Shown here: piece after piece, positions 25,241 to 32,247 of the stretch | Layout: each line of letters starts with the position of its first letter | How positions within the stretch are numbered: the first letter of the stretch is position 1 | Assembly: GCA_023667315.1 (NCBI GenBank) | Contig: JAMPAI010000001.1 | Location: 180,820 to 244,819 of the forward strand | DNA: 64,000 bases | Source: Ruminococcus flavefaciens | GTDB lineage: Bacteria; Bacteroidota; Bacteroidia; Bacteroidales; P3 | Direction: 5' to 3' | Translations under genes and position numbers: made by a program | Notes under the pieces: generated by a model | The model's input: the letters and a program-made list of their open reading frames with translations, nothing else | What the model was told of the DNA's origin: nothing | Databases searched by the model: none

Positions 25241-26755
25241 ATGGAAGACAGGAATCGTACATTGGAGCGTTTGCTTGCCGGATGCACGCCCGCCGTTACG
25301 GGAGCGTGGAAAGCGACAGGTTCTTTAGACAGGGAGGTTTCCGGCCTTGCGCAGGACTCGCGCGCGGTGGCTCCCGGTTTCGTGTTTTTTGCCATCAAGG
25401 GCACGTCCGTGGATGGCCACGCCTATATCGACAAGGCCGTTCAATCGGGCGCGGTGGCGGTGGTCTGCGAACAGATGCCCGAACATCCGCAACAGGACAT
25501 CACCTATATACAGGCTCAAGACAGCAGCCTGCTGATGGGCCATATGGCCTCGGCCTTCTACGGCCATCCCTCGCGCCAGCTGCAACTGGTGGGCATTACC
25601 GGCACCAACGGCAAGACCACCACGGTAACGCTGCTGTACCGTCTGTTCCGCCTGCTGGGCTATAAGGCGGGGCTGCTTTCCACAATAGAGAACCGCATCG
25701 ATACCCAGACGGTGCCCAGCACCCACACCACGGGCGACGCCTTAGAGATAAACGCGCTCCTGCGCCGCATGGTGGACGAAGGCTGCGACTACGCCTTTAT
25801 GGAGGTGAGTTCCCACGCGGCGGTGCAGAACCGCATTGCCGGACTGAACTTCCGGGGCGCCATCTTCAGCAACATCACGCGCGACCACTTAGACTACCAC
25901 AAGACCTTCGACGCCTACATCAAGGCCAAGAAACTGTTCTTCGACCGGCTTCCCTCCACGGCTTTCGCCCTGGTGAACGCCGACGACCGCAACGGGGAGG
26001 TGATGCTGCAGAACACCAAGGCGCTTTGCCGCACCTATTCGCTGCGTTCACCCGCCGATTTCAACGTGAAGATACTGGAAGACTCCCTCTCGGGACTTCA
26101 ACTGGATATGGACGGCACCGAAGTGTGCATGCGGCTGGTGGGGCGTTTCAACGCCTACAACCTTACCGCCATCTACGCCTCGGCCCTGCTGCTGGGTATG
26201 GACAAGACGGAGGTGCTGCGCGCCATGAGCTGCCTTACCGAGGCGCCGGGACGTTTCGAGACGCTCAAATCGACCGAGGGCAACAAGTTGGGCATCGTGG
26301 ATTACGCCCACACGCCCGATGCCTTGCAGAACGTGCTTTCCACGATCGACAGCCTGCGCGGGGAAGTGCGGCAGGTGGTGTGCGTGGTGGGCTGCGGCGG
26401 CAACCGCGATACGGGCAAACGCCCCATCATGGCGCAGATTGCCTGCGATTTGAGCGACCGCCTCATCATCACCACCGACAATCCCCGCTTTGAGGAACCG
26501 CAGGATATCATCGACCAGATGATGGCCGGCCTTTCGCCCTCCCAGCGTGCCAAGACCCTCTGCATTGCCGACCGCAAGGAGGCCATAAAGACCGCCTGCG
26601 CCCTGGCCGGCAGCGGCGACGTGATTCTGGTGGCGGGCAAGGGGCACGAGAACTACCAGGAAGTAAAGGGCGTGAAGCACCATTTCGACGACCGCGAGGT
26701 GTTGGCCGAATGTCTTCCCGCCGTATGGAAGAACGAAACGGATACGGATAAATAA
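25241..26755 (+). CDS. murE: UDP-MurNAc-tripeptide synthetase, meso-diaminopimelate type
   Basis: 504 residues, full length. MurE adds the third residue of the stem peptide to UDP-MurNAc-L-Ala-D-Glu in the cytoplasm using ATP. The Mur ligase ATP motif GITGTNGKTTT is present, with SSHAAVQNRI and ITRDHLDYH of the central domain. The substrate motif DNPR (about residue 413) marks enzymes that add meso-diaminopimelate. Its substrate is the product of MurD, which matters because the murD of this cluster is truncated. Confidence 0.96.
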   Translation: MEDRNRTLERLLAGCTPAVTGAWKATGSLDREVSGLAQDSRAVAPGFVFFAIKGTSVDGHAYIDKAVQSGAVAVVCEQMPEHPQQDITYIQAQDSSLLMGHMASAFYGHPSRQLQLVGITGTNGKTTTVTLLYRLFRLLGYKAGLLSTIENRIDTQTVPSTHTTGDALEINALLRRMVDEGCDYAFMEVSSHAAVQNRIAGLNFRGAIFSNITRDHLDYHKTFDAYIKAKKLFFDRLPSTAFALVNADDRNGEVMLQNTKALCRTYSLRSPADFNVKILEDSLSGLQLDMDGTEVCMRLVGRFNAYNLTAIYASALLLGMDKTEVLRAMSCLTEAPGRFETLKSTEGNKLGIVDYAHTPDALQNVLSTIDSLRGEVRQVVCVVGCGGNRDTGKRPIMAQIACDLSDRLIITTDNPRFEEPQDIIDQMMAGLSPSQRAKTLCIADRKEAIKTACALAGSGDVILVAGKGHENYQEVKGVKHHFDDREVLAECLPAVWKNETDTDK

Positions 26756-26771
26756 TTAAAAACAGACAGCG

Positions 26772-28022
26772 ATGTTGTATTATTTGTTTTCCTATTTGCA
26801 CGAACAGTTCGATATGCCGGGGGCTGGGGTGTTCCAGTACATCTCTTTCCGGGCGGGCATGGCGTTCCTGTTCTCGTTGGTCATCATGTGGGTGGGCGGA
26901 AAATGGATGATCGCCAAATTGCGCCGTAAACAGATTGGCGAGACCGTGCGCGAATTGGGGCTGGACGGGCAGAAAGAAAAGGAGGGAACGCCCACGATGG
27001 GCGGCCTGATCATCATCGCCGCCATCCTTATTCCGGTGCTCCTGTTGTGCCGTCTGGACAACATCTATGTGCTGCTGATGCTGCTCACCACCGTGTGGCT
27101 GGGCGCCATGGGCTTTATGGACGACTACATCAAGGTGTTCAAGCACGACAAGCACGGCCTGCAGGGCAAGTTCAAGGTAGTGGGGCAGGTGGTGCTGGGG
27201 CTGGTGGTCGGCTTGGTGATGTGCTTCCACCCCGACGTGGTGGTTTCGGGCAAGAACGCCTCGGCCTACGTGGAAAACCACAATATGCTCGACCAGTCGG
27301 AATACGAGCAGGCCAAGGCCGCTTTCGAGGCCAGCACCGAGAAATCGCTCGTCACCACGATTCCTTTCGTCAAGAACAACGAACTCGATTACCGGGGCAT
27401 CGTTGAATGGGTCAACCCGAGCTGGGGCAAATACGCCTGGATCCTGTTCGTGCTGGTGGTGATCTTCGTGATAACGGCGGTGTCGAACGGCAGCAACCTT
27501 ACCGACGGCATCGACGGCCTGGCCACCGGAACCTCGGCCATCATCGGGGCGACCCTGGCCATCCTCTCCTGGGTGTCGGGCAACATCATCTTTGCCGACT
27601 ACCTCAATATCATGTATATCCCGCACGTGGGCGAGCTCACCATATTCATCTCGGCCTTCGTGGGAGCCACCATCGGCTTTTTGTGGTACAACACCTATCC
27701 GGCGCAGGTGTTCATGGGCGATACGGGCAGCCTCACCATCGGCGGCATCATCGCCGTGTTCGCGCTCCTGATACGCAAGGAACTGCTGCTGCCCATCCTC
27801 TGCGGCATCTTCCTGGTGGAAAGCCTTTCGGTAATCATGCAGGTTTCCTACTTCAAATACACCAAGAAACGCTGCGGCGAGGGCAGGCGCATCTTCAAGA
27901 TGACCCCGATTCACCACCATTACCAGGTGGCGGGTTTCAAGGAACCCAAGATCGTGATGCGCTTTTTCATTATCGGCCTGCTGCTGGCCGTGGTTACATT
28001 GGTTACGTTAAAACTCAGATAA
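26772..28022 (+). CDS. mraY: Phospho-MurNAc-pentapeptide translocase
   Basis: 416 residues, usual size in Bacteroidota. MraY transfers phospho-MurNAc-pentapeptide to undecaprenyl phosphate and makes lipid I at the inner membrane. Family motifs include GTPTMGGL, the Asp pair in [30 protein letters not shown] and PIHHHYQ. About ten membrane segments are visible. The C-terminus is intact, so the loss in the next gene did not cut into mraY. Confidence 0.97.
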
Positions 28023-28032
28023 TTACATAGCG

Positions 28033-28581
28033 ATGAAAATGAATATCGAAACATTGGCGAAACAGGGCTATGCCTCCGCATCGATGGCGGAAACGGTGGC
28101 CGCGCATATCCAGAACCTGCGCAAGCGCGCCATTCAGGAAAGCTTCCGGGATTTCCGTCAGACGGGACACCGCATGGAGTATGTGGCCAAGGTGCGTGGG
28201 GTCGAATACATCGACGACGCCAAGTCCTACAACGTGAATTCCACCTGGTTCGCGCTCGAGAGCATGACCCGCCCCGTGGTATGGATCGTGGGCGGACAGA
28301 CCAAAGACGTGGATCTGGCGGCCTTGCGTCCCATGGTGGCCAAGAAAGTGTGCCGCATCGTGTGCCTGGGTTCAGACAACGCGCCGGTGGTGGCGGCTTT
28401 CGGCGACCTCGTTTCCGATATCGTGGAGACCGACAATATGGCCAACGCCGTGCAGGCGGCCTACCTGATGGCCAACGAAGGCGAGATCGTGCTGCTTTCG
28501 CCCGCCTGCCCCAGCTTCGACCTGTTCGAAAGCTACCAGGACAAGGGCACGCAGTTCAAACAGGCGGTTTACGAATTGTAG
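28033..28581 (+). CDS. murD: Truncated MurD: only the C-terminal ligase domain
   Basis: 182 residues, against about 440-450 for MurD (UDP-MurNAc-L-alanine:D-glutamate ligase). It begins within the last helices of the central domain (MAETVAAHIQNLRKRAI) and covers domain 3. Family motifs of that domain are kept: GHRMEYVAKVRGVEYIDDAK, SYNVNSTWFALESM, VVWIVGGQTKDVD and LLSPACPSFDLFESYQDKG. The UDP-MurNAc-binding domain and the P-loop ATP domain are missing, and only 10 bases separate it from mraY. The frame has no stops or shifts, and it has its own ATG. Alone it cannot bind ATP or the nucleotide substrate as known MurD does. It may work with a separately encoded N-terminal part, regulate, or be a recent remnant. 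Confidence 0.85.
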   Translation: MKMNIETLAKQGYASASMAETVAAHIQNLRKRAIQESFRDFRQTGHRMEYVAKVRGVEYIDDAKSYNVNSTWFALESMTRPVVWIVGGQTKDVDLAALRPMVAKKVCRIVCLGSDNAPVVAAFGDLVSDIVETDNMANAVQAAYLMANEGEIVLLSPACPSFDLFESYQDKGTQFKQAVYEL

Positions 28582-28602: not shown

Positions 28603-29760
28603 ATGGCCAACAAGGGTACGGGCATATTCAAATACTTGCGTGGAGACAAGGGCATCTGGACCATCATGATGATCCTCACCTTCGTTTCCATTGCGGCGGT
28701 ATACAGCTCTACCGGACGTCTGGCCTATCTCAAGCAGGGGGGCGACACCACCTACTATATGCTCAAGCATCTGGGCATCCTGGTGGTGGCCTGGGGTATC
28801 ATGTACGGGGTGCACCGCGTCAAGTACACGTATTTTTCCCGCTTCGCGCAGCTTATGGTGCTGCCGGTGCTGGGCTTGCTGGTGGTGACCCTTACCATGG
28901 CCACCGTAAACGATGCCGCCCGCTGGATAAGGTTGGGGCCGATCTCGTTCCAGCCCTCCGAACTGGCCAAGCTGGTTATCGTGGTGTTCCTGGCGCGGCA
29001 GCTTACCAAATACCAGCCGGTAATCAAGGAGGGAAGCACCTTGTTTCGCCTGCTGTGGGCACCCTTGCTGGGCGCCGCCCTGATCTTTCCCGAGAACCTT
29101 TCCACGGCGGCCCTGTTGTTGCTTACCTGTTTCGTGATGATGACCGTGGGCGGTGTGGCCGCCCGCTATATCTGGAGCATGGTGGGGGCGGGCGTGTTGT
29201 TCGTGGCCGTGTTCCTATCCGTGCTGTATTTTGTGCCGGCCGAGAATCTGCCCGGGCGATTCTCCACATGGAAGGCCCGTGTGGAACGCTTCGGAAGCGA
29301 GGAAGACGAGTCCTATCAGGTAACGCAGTCCAAGATAGCCATTGCCGGCGGGGGCGTGTTCGGCAAGGGGCCGGGCAACAGCACGCAGCGCAACTTCCTG
29401 CCGCACCCGTATTCCGACTATATCTATTCGCTCATCATCGAGGAATACGGCATGTTCGCGGGCATCGGCGTCATGCTGCTCTACCTCTGGTTCCTGATGC
29501 GCGGCATCAGCATCGCCCGCAGGTGCCGGGGTTCGTTCGGCAGCTATATGGTGCTGGGCATTACGTTCATGCTGACCTTGCAGGCGCTCATCAACATGGG
29601 TGTGGCGGTCGACCTGCTGCCGGTAACGGGGCAGCCGCTGCCTTTCCTGAGCATGGGGGGAACCTCGCTGTTCTTTACCGCCTGCGGCATGGGGGTTATC
29701 CTGAGCGTGAGCGCGGATGTGGAGAAGACGGAATTGGAAGAAAACAAAAAAGAAAACTAG
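28603..29760 (+). CDS. ftsW: Septal peptidoglycan glycosyltransferase, SEDS family
   Basis: 385 residues with about ten membrane segments. FtsW polymerises lipid II at the septum with its partner transpeptidase FtsI. SEDS motifs are seen: DAARWIRLGPISFQPSELAK, GGGVFGKGPGNS (the glycosyltransferase loop region), PHPYSDYIYSLIIEE, and NMGVAVDLLPVTGQPLPFLS with the terminal GGTS. It lies between murD and murG in standard order. Confidence 0.96.
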   Translation: MANKGTGIFKYLRGDKGIWTIMMILTFVSIAAVYSSTGRLAYLKQGGDTTYYMLKHLGILVVAWGIMYGVHRVKYTYFSRFAQLMVLPVLGLLVVTLTMATVNDAARWIRLGPISFQPSELAKLVIVVFLARQLTKYQPVIKEGSTLFRLLWAPLLGAALIFPENLSTAALLLLTCFVMMTVGGVAARYIWSMVGAGVLFVAVFLSVLYFVPAENLPGRFSTWKARVERFGSEEDESYQVTQSKIAIAGGGVFGKGPGNSTQRNFLPHPYSDYIYSLIIEEYGMFAGIGVMLLYLWFLMRGISIARRCRGSFGSYMVLGITFMLTLQALINMGVAVDLLPVTGQPLPFLSMGGTSLFFTACGMGVILSVSADVEKTELEENKKEN

Positions 29761-29766
29761 ATAATC

Positions 29767-30864
29767 ATGCAGAAGCAAGCGTTAAAGGTGATTATAAGCG
29801 GCGGCGGCACGGGCGGCCATATCTTTCCGGCCATCGCCATCGCCAACGAGATAAAGCATCGCGAGCCCGATGCCGACATTCTTTTTGTGGGTGCCGAGAA
29901 CCGCATGGAAATGGAGAAGGTTCCGGCCGAAGGCTACCAGATCGTGGGCTTGAACGTGGTGGGTCTGGACCGCAAGCATCCGTTCAAGAATCTCTCGCTG
30001 CCTTTCAAGCTGGCCAAGAGCCTGCGGCAGACGCGCAGGATCATCCGCGATTTCGCCCCCGACGTGGTGGTGGGCGTGGGCGGTTATGCCAGCGCTCCCA
30101 CGCTGTATTCGGCGCAAAGGCTCGGGATCCCCACGCTGATTCAGGAGCAGAACTCGCTGCCGGGCATGACCAACCGAATCCTGAGCAAACGCGCCAAGTG
30201 CATCTGTGTGGGATACGACGATATGGAAAGGTTCTTTCCGCGCGAGAAGATTGTCTGGACGGGCAATCCCATCCGTCAGGACATTTCGGACATCGGCGCC
30301 AAGCGCGAGGAGGCCTATTCGTTCTACAACCTGAAGAAAGACATGCCCACGCTTTTGGTGATGGGCGGAAGCCTGGGCGCCGGCACCATCAACGAAGGCA
30401 TGAAGGGGAACATTGACTACCTGCTTGCCCAGGGTTTCCAGGTTATCTGGCAGACGGGCAAGTATTACTATCAGAAGATGCTTCCCTATGCCGAGGGCAA
30501 GGAAAACTTAGTGCTGCTCGACTTCGTGCGCCGGGTCGATCTGGCGTATGCGGCGGCCGACATCATCGTTTCGCGCGCCGGTGCCATCACCATTTCGGAA
30601 CTCTGCGTGGTGGGCAAGCCCCTGGTGCTGATACCTTCGCCCAACGTGGCCGAAGACCATCAGACCCGAAACGCCGAGGCCCTCAGCTCGCGCAACGCCG
30701 CCATCCTCCTGCACGACGACCGCACGGTGGCCGACCTGGGCAAGACGGTGGTGGAACTCTGGCAGAACGACCGCCGGAGGGAGCTGCTCTCGCAGAACAT
30801 CTCGCGCATGGGCACCACCTCGGCGGCCAAGATGATTGTTGACGAGGTGATGAAACTGATATAA
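29767..30864 (+). CDS. murG: UDP-GlcNAc:lipid I N-acetylglucosaminyltransferase
   Basis: 365 residues. MurG adds GlcNAc to lipid I to make lipid II at the inner face of the membrane. The glycine-rich loops SGGGTGGHIFPAIAIA and VGVGGYASAPTL, the EQNSLPGMTNRIL stretch and the UDP-GlcNAc site SRAGAITISELC are present. It is six bases after ftsW and three before murC. Confidence 0.97.
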   Translation: MQKQALKVIISGGGTGGHIFPAIAIANEIKHREPDADILFVGAENRMEMEKVPAEGYQIVGLNVVGLDRKHPFKNLSLPFKLAKSLRQTRRIIRDFAPDVVVGVGGYASAPTLYSAQRLGIPTLIQEQNSLPGMTNRILSKRAKCICVGYDDMERFFPREKIVWTGNPIRQDISDIGAKREEAYSFYNLKKDMPTLLVMGGSLGAGTINEGMKGNIDYLLAQGFQVIWQTGKYYYQKMLPYAEGKENLVLLDFVRRVDLAYAAADIIVSRAGAITISELCVVGKPLVLIPSPNVAEDHQTRNAEALSSRNAAILLHDDRTVADLGKTVVELWQNDRRRELLSQNISRMGTTSAAKMIVDEVMKLI

Positions 30865-30867
30865 AGC

Positions 30868-32247
30868 ATGGATACGCACCGCATCACATATCCCTATTTC
30901 CTGGGCATCGGCGGCATCGGAATGAGCGCGCTGGCCTGCCATTACCTGCACCAAGGCTGCAAGGTGGCGGGCTACGACCGCGTGCGCACGCCGCTTACCC
31001 GGAAATTAGAGGCTATGGGGGCGGAGATCCATTATACCGAATCGCCCGGACTGTTGCCCGAAGCCGTGGACGCGGTGGTCTATACGCCCGCCATCCCTTC
31101 CTCCCATGCCGAATGGGGCGAGATAAGGCGGAGGGGCCTGCCGGTCTATAAACGGGCGCAGGTGCTGGGCATGCTGAGCCGGCGGTACAAGACGCTGGCG
31201 GTGGCCGGAACGCACGGCAAGACCACCACGTCGGCACTGTTGGCCTACCTGATGCACGGCAGCATAGGCTGCAACGCCGTGTTGGGCGGCATAGTCCCCG
31301 ACCTGGACGGCAACTACCTGCACAACGGCCGAAGCCCCTATCTGGTAACGGAGGCCGACGAATACGACCGTTCTTTCCTGCAGTTGAACCCCTGGTTCTC
31401 GGCGGTCACGGCCTGGGATGCCGACCATCTGGACATCTACGGCGATGTGGAAACGATGCGCGAGGCTTATGTGCAGTTTATGCGGCAGTCGGAGCATTTT
31501 ATCGCCGAAGCCTCTTTGGAACTTCCGCTGAAGGCAGACTACGTATATGGCATGGCGGCGCGCAACGATAGCGGTGGTGCGGCTTTTGCCGAGAACGTGC
31601 GGGTAAGTGACGGATGTTACACCTTCGATTATTCGGGTCCCAAGGGGCGTATCGAAAACCTGCGGCTTTCCTGTCCGGGACGGCACAATATAGAGAACGC
31701 GGTGGCGGCCGTTAGCCTTGCGCTGGAAGCAGGCGTGGAAGCCCACGACATACGGCGGCTCCTGCCGCTTTTCAAGGGCGTTCGCCGCAGGCTCGAACCC
31801 ATTTTCGTACAGCCGGGATTGGCCTATTACGACGATTACGCCCATCATCCGGCCGAAATAACGGCCAGCATAGACGCCTTGCGCGAATTTTATCCCGATT
31901 ACCGCATGGCGGTGTTCTTCCAGCCGCACCTGTACACCCGCACGCGCGACCTGGCGCAGGGTTTCGCCCAGAGCCTGCGGGCGGCGAACGAACTCTGCCT
32001 GGTGGACATCTATCCGGCGCGCGAGCTGCCGATACCTGGCGTGGACACCCGCCTGATAGGCGATAAGGTCGAGGGGGTTCAGGTAAGGTATGCCGCCAAG
32101 GAAAACGTATTGGCGCAGGTGGAGGAATACCTGCGGGAACAGGCCGCCGGCAAGCACAGGCTGCTGCTCGTTACGATGGGTGCCGGCGATATCGACACCC
32201 TGGTTGAACCCATCCGTAACCGTCTGCAGAAAGGAGGGGCGGCATGA
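30868..32247 (+). CDS. murC: UDP-MurNAc:L-alanine ligase
   Basis: 459 residues, full length. MurC adds L-Ala to UDP-MurNAc with ATP. The N-terminal GIGGIGMSALA nucleotide-sugar loop, the P-loop AGTHGKTTTSALLAYL, the Glu-Asp motif EADEYDRSFLQL, DHLDIYGD and the C-terminal DDYAHHPAEI are all present. Unlike murD, all three Mur-ligase domains are here. Its last four bases (ATGA) overlap the ftsQ start. Confidence 0.96.
   Translation: MDTHRITYPYFLGIGGIGMSALACHYLHQGCKVAGYDRVRTPLTRKLEAMGAEIHYTESPGLLPEAVDAVVYTPAIPSSHAEWGEIRRRGLPVYKRAQVLGMLSRRYKTLAVAGTHGKTTTSALLAYLMHGSIGCNAVLGGIVPDLDGNYLHNGRSPYLVTEADEYDRSFLQLNPWFSAVTAWDADHLDIYGDVETMREAYVQFMRQSEHFIAEASLELPLKADYVYGMAARNDSGGAAFAENVRVSDGCYTFDYSGPKGRIENLRLSCPGRHNIENAVAAVSLALEAGVEAHDIRRLLPLFKGVRRRLEPIFVQPGLAYYDDYAHHPAEITASIDALREFYPDYRMAVFFQPHLYTRTRDLAQGFAQSLRAANELCLVDIYPARELPIPGVDTRLIGDKVEGVQVRYAAKENVLAQVEEYLREQAAGKHRLLLVTMGAGDIDTLVEPIRNRLQKGGAA

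Follow-up and report, generated by a model that had tools for sequence, protein, structure and literature searches.

The essential enzyme MurD, which is also a drug target, has been studied mainly as a ligase. MurG-centred scaffolds of Mur ligases have been described in Bordetella and Thermotoga, and MurD is engaged there too, but as a whole ligase, and the available portion of that source does not describe a lone C-terminal domain (PMC6420597). Since the same portion reports that Thermotoga MurD binds MurG and MreB, a scaffold role is not far-fetched. The other closely related system is the MurL/MurD2 route of Xanthomonas oryzae (PMC8788868, PMC5808125), for which the available text of the first source gives Glu197 and Arg358 as the two residues that set the L-Glu specificity of MurD2. 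The available portions of these two reviews do not name Bacteroidota in the distribution of MurL, and in the accessible part of the open-licence literature we found no report of a lone MurD C-terminal domain (MurD-C), nor one of MurL in Bacteroidota.

The window, a stretch of 64,000 nucleotides, contains a dcw cluster in which the place of murD is occupied by a short gene:

25241..26755, + strand: murE, 504 aa, full length (family and Pfam profile match)
26772..28022, + strand: mraY, 416 aa, full length, direct upstream neighbour (named in the preliminary description and by cluster position)
28033..28581, + strand: stand-alone MurD C-terminal domain (MurD-C), 182 aa (ORF, TIGR01087 and Pfam match, genus and family conservation, dN/dS)
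28603..29760, + strand: ftsW, 385 aa, full length, direct downstream neighbour (named in the preliminary description and by cluster position)
29767..30864, + strand: murG, 365 aa, full length, candidate scaffold partner (TIGR01133, 308.4 bits, cut-off 250.25)
30868..32247, + strand: murC, 459 aa, full length (family and Pfam profile match)

The MurD-C ORF begins with an ATG 10 bases past the mraY stop and ends 21 bases short of ftsW. It matched the murD model TIGR01087 over profile positions 269-439 of 441 only, scoring 161.8 bits and thus falling below the cut-off of 211.95 for a whole MurD, and it matched Pfam Mur_ligase_C (PF02875) at 44.4 bits (cut-off 28.4), as expected of a homologous C-terminal domain. 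The other two Mur-ligase domains, including Mur_ligase_M, were not matched in the Pfam scan, so that neither a UDP-MurNAc-binding domain nor a P-loop or central ATP-binding domain was found. Solved MurD chains (PDB 8dp2, 7sy9, and 1e0d) aligned with MurD-C over their C-terminal third (E 5.5e-22). The structure predicted for MurD-C from four sequences, those of the window and three related loci, had a pLDDT of 51 and was set aside. The window MurE was of the diaminopimelate type (NF001126, 603.9 bits, cut-off 373). These findings confirm the preliminary description in its account of an intact 182-codon gene in murD's place that lacks the first two domains, of full-length neighbouring genes, and of the type of MurE. 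A second in-frame ATG at 28039, which would give a product of 180 aa, aligned with the methionine used as the start by most short genes; therefore, 28039 rather than 28033 may be the true start.

MurD-C was present in 13/13 genomes of the genus at 62-100% identity, one of those besides the window's own having it at 99%, and was matched in 181 of the 190 genomes of the family (E<=1e-10), including 108 of 109 good-quality genomes and 12/12 genera. Open frames were mostly 176-240 aa among the family matches listed, and an in-frame stop was found among them in one genome, G021. Five longer frames that we examined (245-397 aa, including frames of 255, 315, 364, and 397 aa) were short genes running out of frame back into mraY. 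Presence across genus and family, together with this explanation of the longer frames, indicates that MurD-C is neither a chance ORF nor a local assembly fault. We aligned 70 copies, of which 68 lay between mraY and ftsW and the other two at a contig edge, and the dcw genes stood in the same order in 41/41 family regions, over the extent that each region or match covered. Within the genus, the median dN/dS of MurD-C was 0.138 (49 pairs, dS<2), with neighbour medians of 0.076 for mraY (49 pairs) and 0.180 for ftsW (47 pairs), a pattern unlike the relaxed or neutral evolution and broken frames of a pseudogene. The dS of MurD-C resembled that of its neighbours, indicating no special constraint on synonymous sites. 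We also re-checked 10 genomes seemingly without the short gene, comprising 6 of the 9 unmatched family genomes and 4 from the order. Four of the five in which mraY was assembled (G162, G160, G164, and G260) carried a MurD-C frame of 168-208 aa that had diverged so far as to be detected by profile only but retained its position between mraY and ftsW; mraY was not matched in the remaining five. These results show that the dcw-cluster murD of the window's genome is reduced to its C-terminal domain, and that this domain persists at the same position throughout the family as a protein subject to purifying selection, as the preliminary description had anticipated for a real split or a new role.

A search of the window's genome with the MurD profile gave 11 matches, which included MurD-C, a MurL-MurD2 fusion, MurC, MurE, MurF, an Mpl/MurC-like protein that scored under both cut-offs, a MurB-FolC protein, and a frame of the MurF-alanine racemase type (838 aa, 239 aa of which were scanned); one match on contig C40 had an E value of 0.23. 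The orphan N-terminal half of MurD suggested in the preliminary description was not found among these matches. In the MurB-FolC fusion (L002:1468-3258, contig C33), the C-terminal part of MurB precedes FolC in the same frame.

The sole full MurD-like ligase in the window's genome was the C-terminal half of a 983-aa ORF (L035:10827-13775, contig C22) in which a MurL homologue and a complete MurD ligase are fused. The MurD2 part matched TIGR01087 end to end, including its own C domain, at 288.8 bits (cut-off 211.95), and the ORF carried the MurD2 signature. The MurL part scored 241.6 bits against NF041275, a Xanthomonadales model, below its cut-off of 700. We found no match to glutamate racemase (TIGR00067) at 1e-3 or to D-amino acid transaminase (TIGR01121) at 1e-60 in the window's genome, and no racemase above the cut-off in any of the 190 family genomes, among which G187 alone had a 21-bit match. 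The preliminary description had pointed to the X. oryzae route, in which MurD2 adds L-Glu and MurL epimerises it, as one possible way to D-Glu, and among the options given there this is the one supported: the MurL homologue, the Glu/Arg signature of MurD2, and the lack of a detected racemase all resemble the X. oryzae system as presented in the available portions of PMC8788868 and PMC5808125, whereas here MurL and MurD2 form one fused protein in the window's genome and in 29 of 48 other loci with MurD2 in reach. Judged from homology, MurL-MurD2 would account for the missing D-Glu step. The preliminary description had set against its own reading the combination of a full ligase elsewhere and neutral decay of the short gene; the former does exist, in the form of MurL-MurD2, but the latter was not seen in the dN/dS of MurD-C.

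In 49 of the 50 loci examined, MurD2 was either fused to MurL or adjacent to it, the window's genome being counted twice, and by the same count the two were fused in 30 of 49 loci and separate in the others. A P-loop was read in all 49 MurD2 loci, and for the L-Glu signature the search pattern found Glu in 47 of the 49 MurD2 sequences and Arg in 44, the rest not being matched by it. The fusion was matched in 173 of 189 family genomes and in 12/12 genera.

The route extends to part of this order: among 149 sampled genomes, MurL was found in 54 and racemase above the cut-off in 89, with both in 0 and neither in 6. The dcw murD of the 54 MurL-positive genomes was short in 22 and full in 26; the others were dropped before the counts, three because the gene was cut by the contig start (G241, G283, and G295, the first of which also had a MurL match of only 120 codons at a contig edge) and three because the interval was unassembled or rearranged (G209, G266, and G317). 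G194, in which mraY lies off the contig, was scored as short through an upstream in-frame stop. Among the 95 MurL-negative genomes, a long frame was seen in 93 and a short gene in none, and G204 and G206 had no usable row; one of the MurL-negative genomes, G195, had a 111-aa fragment on one contig and a 436-aa frame on a different one. Short MurD-C thus occurred in 22/48 scored MurL-positive and 0/93 MurL-negative genomes (Fisher p 9e-13, with kinship ignored). In a phylum sample, MurL was detected in 0/157 genomes besides the window's own, of which 20 of known kinship belong to the same class and the other 137 are without kinship shown. In a large bacterial group, a rare alternative route seems to have taken the place of catalysis by the dcw MurD. 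In G266 (L221), an unrelated 340-aa frame follows mraY with no murD or ftsW there, and the dcw cluster seems broken.

The 26 full dcw MurDs of MurL-positive genomes (L162-L187) had a P-loop in 26/26, and the other catalytic positions examined were intact, except that N271 was Asp in 2/26. An apparently intact D-Glu-type MurD thus stands beside MurL in 26 genomes in which no clear D-Glu-forming gene was found. Ten MurL-positive genomes had sub-cut-off matches to the racemase family (25-44 bits versus 146.65), of which six had full MurD (G215, G229, G286, G287, G298, and G302), two were short (G312 and G328), one was cut (G241), and one had the interval unassembled or rearranged (G317). D-Amino acid transaminase as a D-Glu source for the MurL-positive genomes with full MurD was rejected, since 5/149 genomes matched at 1e-60 and none of these had MurL. 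Because full MurD is intact in these 26 genomes despite the lack of a clear D-Glu source, its catalysis there seems to be still valued.

We compared the residues lost and kept in the 70 aligned copies with those of full MurDs; in the residue table, one full gene present twice (G278, as L108 and L193) is doubled among the 14 MurL-negative rows. MurD-C shares with canonical MurD the homology of its C-terminal third and the place between mraY and ftsW. Unlike canonical MurD, it is without the UDP-MurNAc-binding and ATP-binding domains, the Asn pair of the central-domain GxHN motif is lost in most short genes (N268 was changed in 13/13 genus copies), and residues for D-Glu binding are eroding: the D-Glu Lys was retained in 17/70 short genes, Ser415 and its loop decay in short genes outside the genus, and K348 and K319 also erode. 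An Asp at the position that we take to be D317 of E. coli MurD was found in 70/70 copies, and the R302 position was Arg or Lys in 69/70. Asp62, Trp84, and Gly113 (numbered as in the MurD-C of the window) were unchanged over 70/70 copies, and Pro157 and Ala139 (same numbering) were each found in 69/70. In G164, which lies outside the 70 copies, the Asp of the D317 position seems gone as read by eye. We read this pattern of residues as suggesting that MurD-C is held for its fold and a surface and not for D-Glu binding, and ligation by MurD-C alone is not expected from its sequence. The invariant Asp at the D317 position is compatible with a nucleotide contact as well as with a structural role.

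The point at which the short genes begin nearly always corresponds to a methionine within full MurD. In full MurDs of the order, a Met preceded the strand leading to GxHN (MTLEELALQG type) in 34 of 39 distinct genes, from which the repeated G278 gene had been removed, and the other 5 had Ile. The first in-frame ATG after mraY fell exactly on this Met column in 46/70 short genes and at most 4 residues off in 66/70; it lay a median of 22 bases beyond the mraY stop (69 short copies). Two further internal methionines of full MurD were equally conserved (36/39 each); therefore, the conservation of the Met at the start column is not special, but its use as a start is. A bolder and rather doubtful possibility is that full murD is two genes in one, with an internal start at the conserved Met yielding the C-terminal domain as a separate structural protein of the cell wall complex, and that this inner gene alone survives replacement by MurL-MurD2 in lineage after lineage. 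Were that so, the C-terminal third of MurD might serve a function apart from ligation in other bacteria as well.

Trees of the flanking genes bear on how often the truncation occurred. In a tree of mraY and ftsW from 78 loci, the group of short genes needed 12 changes, at least 6 of them forced by starred branches; with the cut rows removed, 13 changes were needed and a single short clade was rejected (p-AU 8e-5). The window's family was not one clade in the tree that included it (4 changes), which indicates that the tree has errors or that genes were exchanged. A tree without the window's family (f1), from which three rows with a missing flank were also left out, contained 52 loci, 18 of them short. 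It needed 13 changes, of which starred branches forced at least 7, and a single short clade was again rejected (p-AU 1.4e-8, with the bootstrap unsettled). In each of families f35 and f27, one sampled genome was short and the other full. The tree of the MurD-C domain itself needed 4 changes, and a slow subset, which omitted 19 short loci and 3 cut ones, needed 6 (p-AU 0.315 for a single origin). Because the domain tree does not reject one clade, a single origin with later exchange is compatible with the gene's own sequence; rapid evolution of the short copies weakens this tree. The flanking genes thus give good support to repeated truncation of the dcw murD, without settling it.

Considering these results together, we think it probable that MurD-C has a ligase-independent role, most likely a structural one, in a Mur or divisome complex; the preliminary description had likewise suggested that a stand-alone domain could act as a partner subunit or regulator. 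In such a model, the C-terminal third of MurD would serve as a structural or docking part of a cytoplasmic Mur or MraY-MurG-FtsW assembly. With catalysis passed to MurL-MurD2, MurD could do without its N-terminal and ATP-binding domains, and a deletion reaching an in-frame internal Met could remove them while the domain with the second role stays; according to the flanking-gene trees, this would have happened several times. MurD-C would then be a noncatalytic part of a dcw-encoded assembly through which precursors reach the membrane. Rates of MurD-C were most strongly coupled to those of MurE (0.34), MurG (0.30), FtsQ (0.29), and FtsW (0.28), values computed on 39 of 41 rows and 9 of 11 genes without a permutation test, and weak beside the 0.59 of FtsI-FtsW, a known partner pair and our yardstick. 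Besides this weak coupling, the domain tree, the failure of the flanking-gene tree to recover the window's family, the intact full MurDs of 26 MurL-positive genomes, and the invariant Asp at the D317 position weigh against the model.

Other functions of the protein deserve consideration. MurD-C may instead work with MurL-MurD2, which we regard as rather unlikely: the short form is found only alongside MurL, but this association would equally arise if MurL did no more than allow MurD to shrink, MurD2 is already complete with its own C domain and a P-loop in 49/49 loci, and in 26 MurL-positive genomes a full MurD stands where the lone domain would be. The coupling to MurE, the strongest although weak, would fit such cooperation. 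Sensing of nucleotides or precursors by MurD-C, with regulation of a neighbour such as MraY, FtsW, or MurE, could account for the persistence of the D317-position Asp and of Arg or Lys at R302; considering that there is no P-loop domain, that N268 and N271 are mostly lost, that K348, S415, and K319 erode, and that the Asp is seemingly gone in G164, we hold a sensor to be unlikely.

Readings in which the protein itself does little fare worse. If MurD-C were a relic whose sole use lay in cis, in spacing mraY and ftsW or coupling their translation, its location between these genes in 68/70 copies and the short distance from the mraY stop to the ATG would follow, but the constraint lies at the protein level (dN/dS 0.14, with neighbour-like dS, and invariant Asp62, Trp84, and Gly113), and one would not expect spacing to preserve a domain of 170-190 aa that is still recognisable at about 30% identity, which makes this very improbable. 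The assemblies are drafts, and the preliminary description had allowed for an assembly error at the locus; we give this, or a decaying pseudogene, practically no credence, since comparison across genomes refuted it, with the same short gene under purifying selection in 13/13 genus and 181/190 family genomes.

The family presents a natural domain-deletion experiment, in which two thirds of MurD are gone and one third is kept, family-wide and apparently several times, and this natural deletion of the other domains opens a role of a Mur ligase beyond ligation to direct testing. Across the 41 dcw regions of the family, FtsI, FtsW, and FtsQ evolved fast, with median distances of 1.2-1.8 versus 0.5-0.8 for MraY, MurE, MurG, and MurC.
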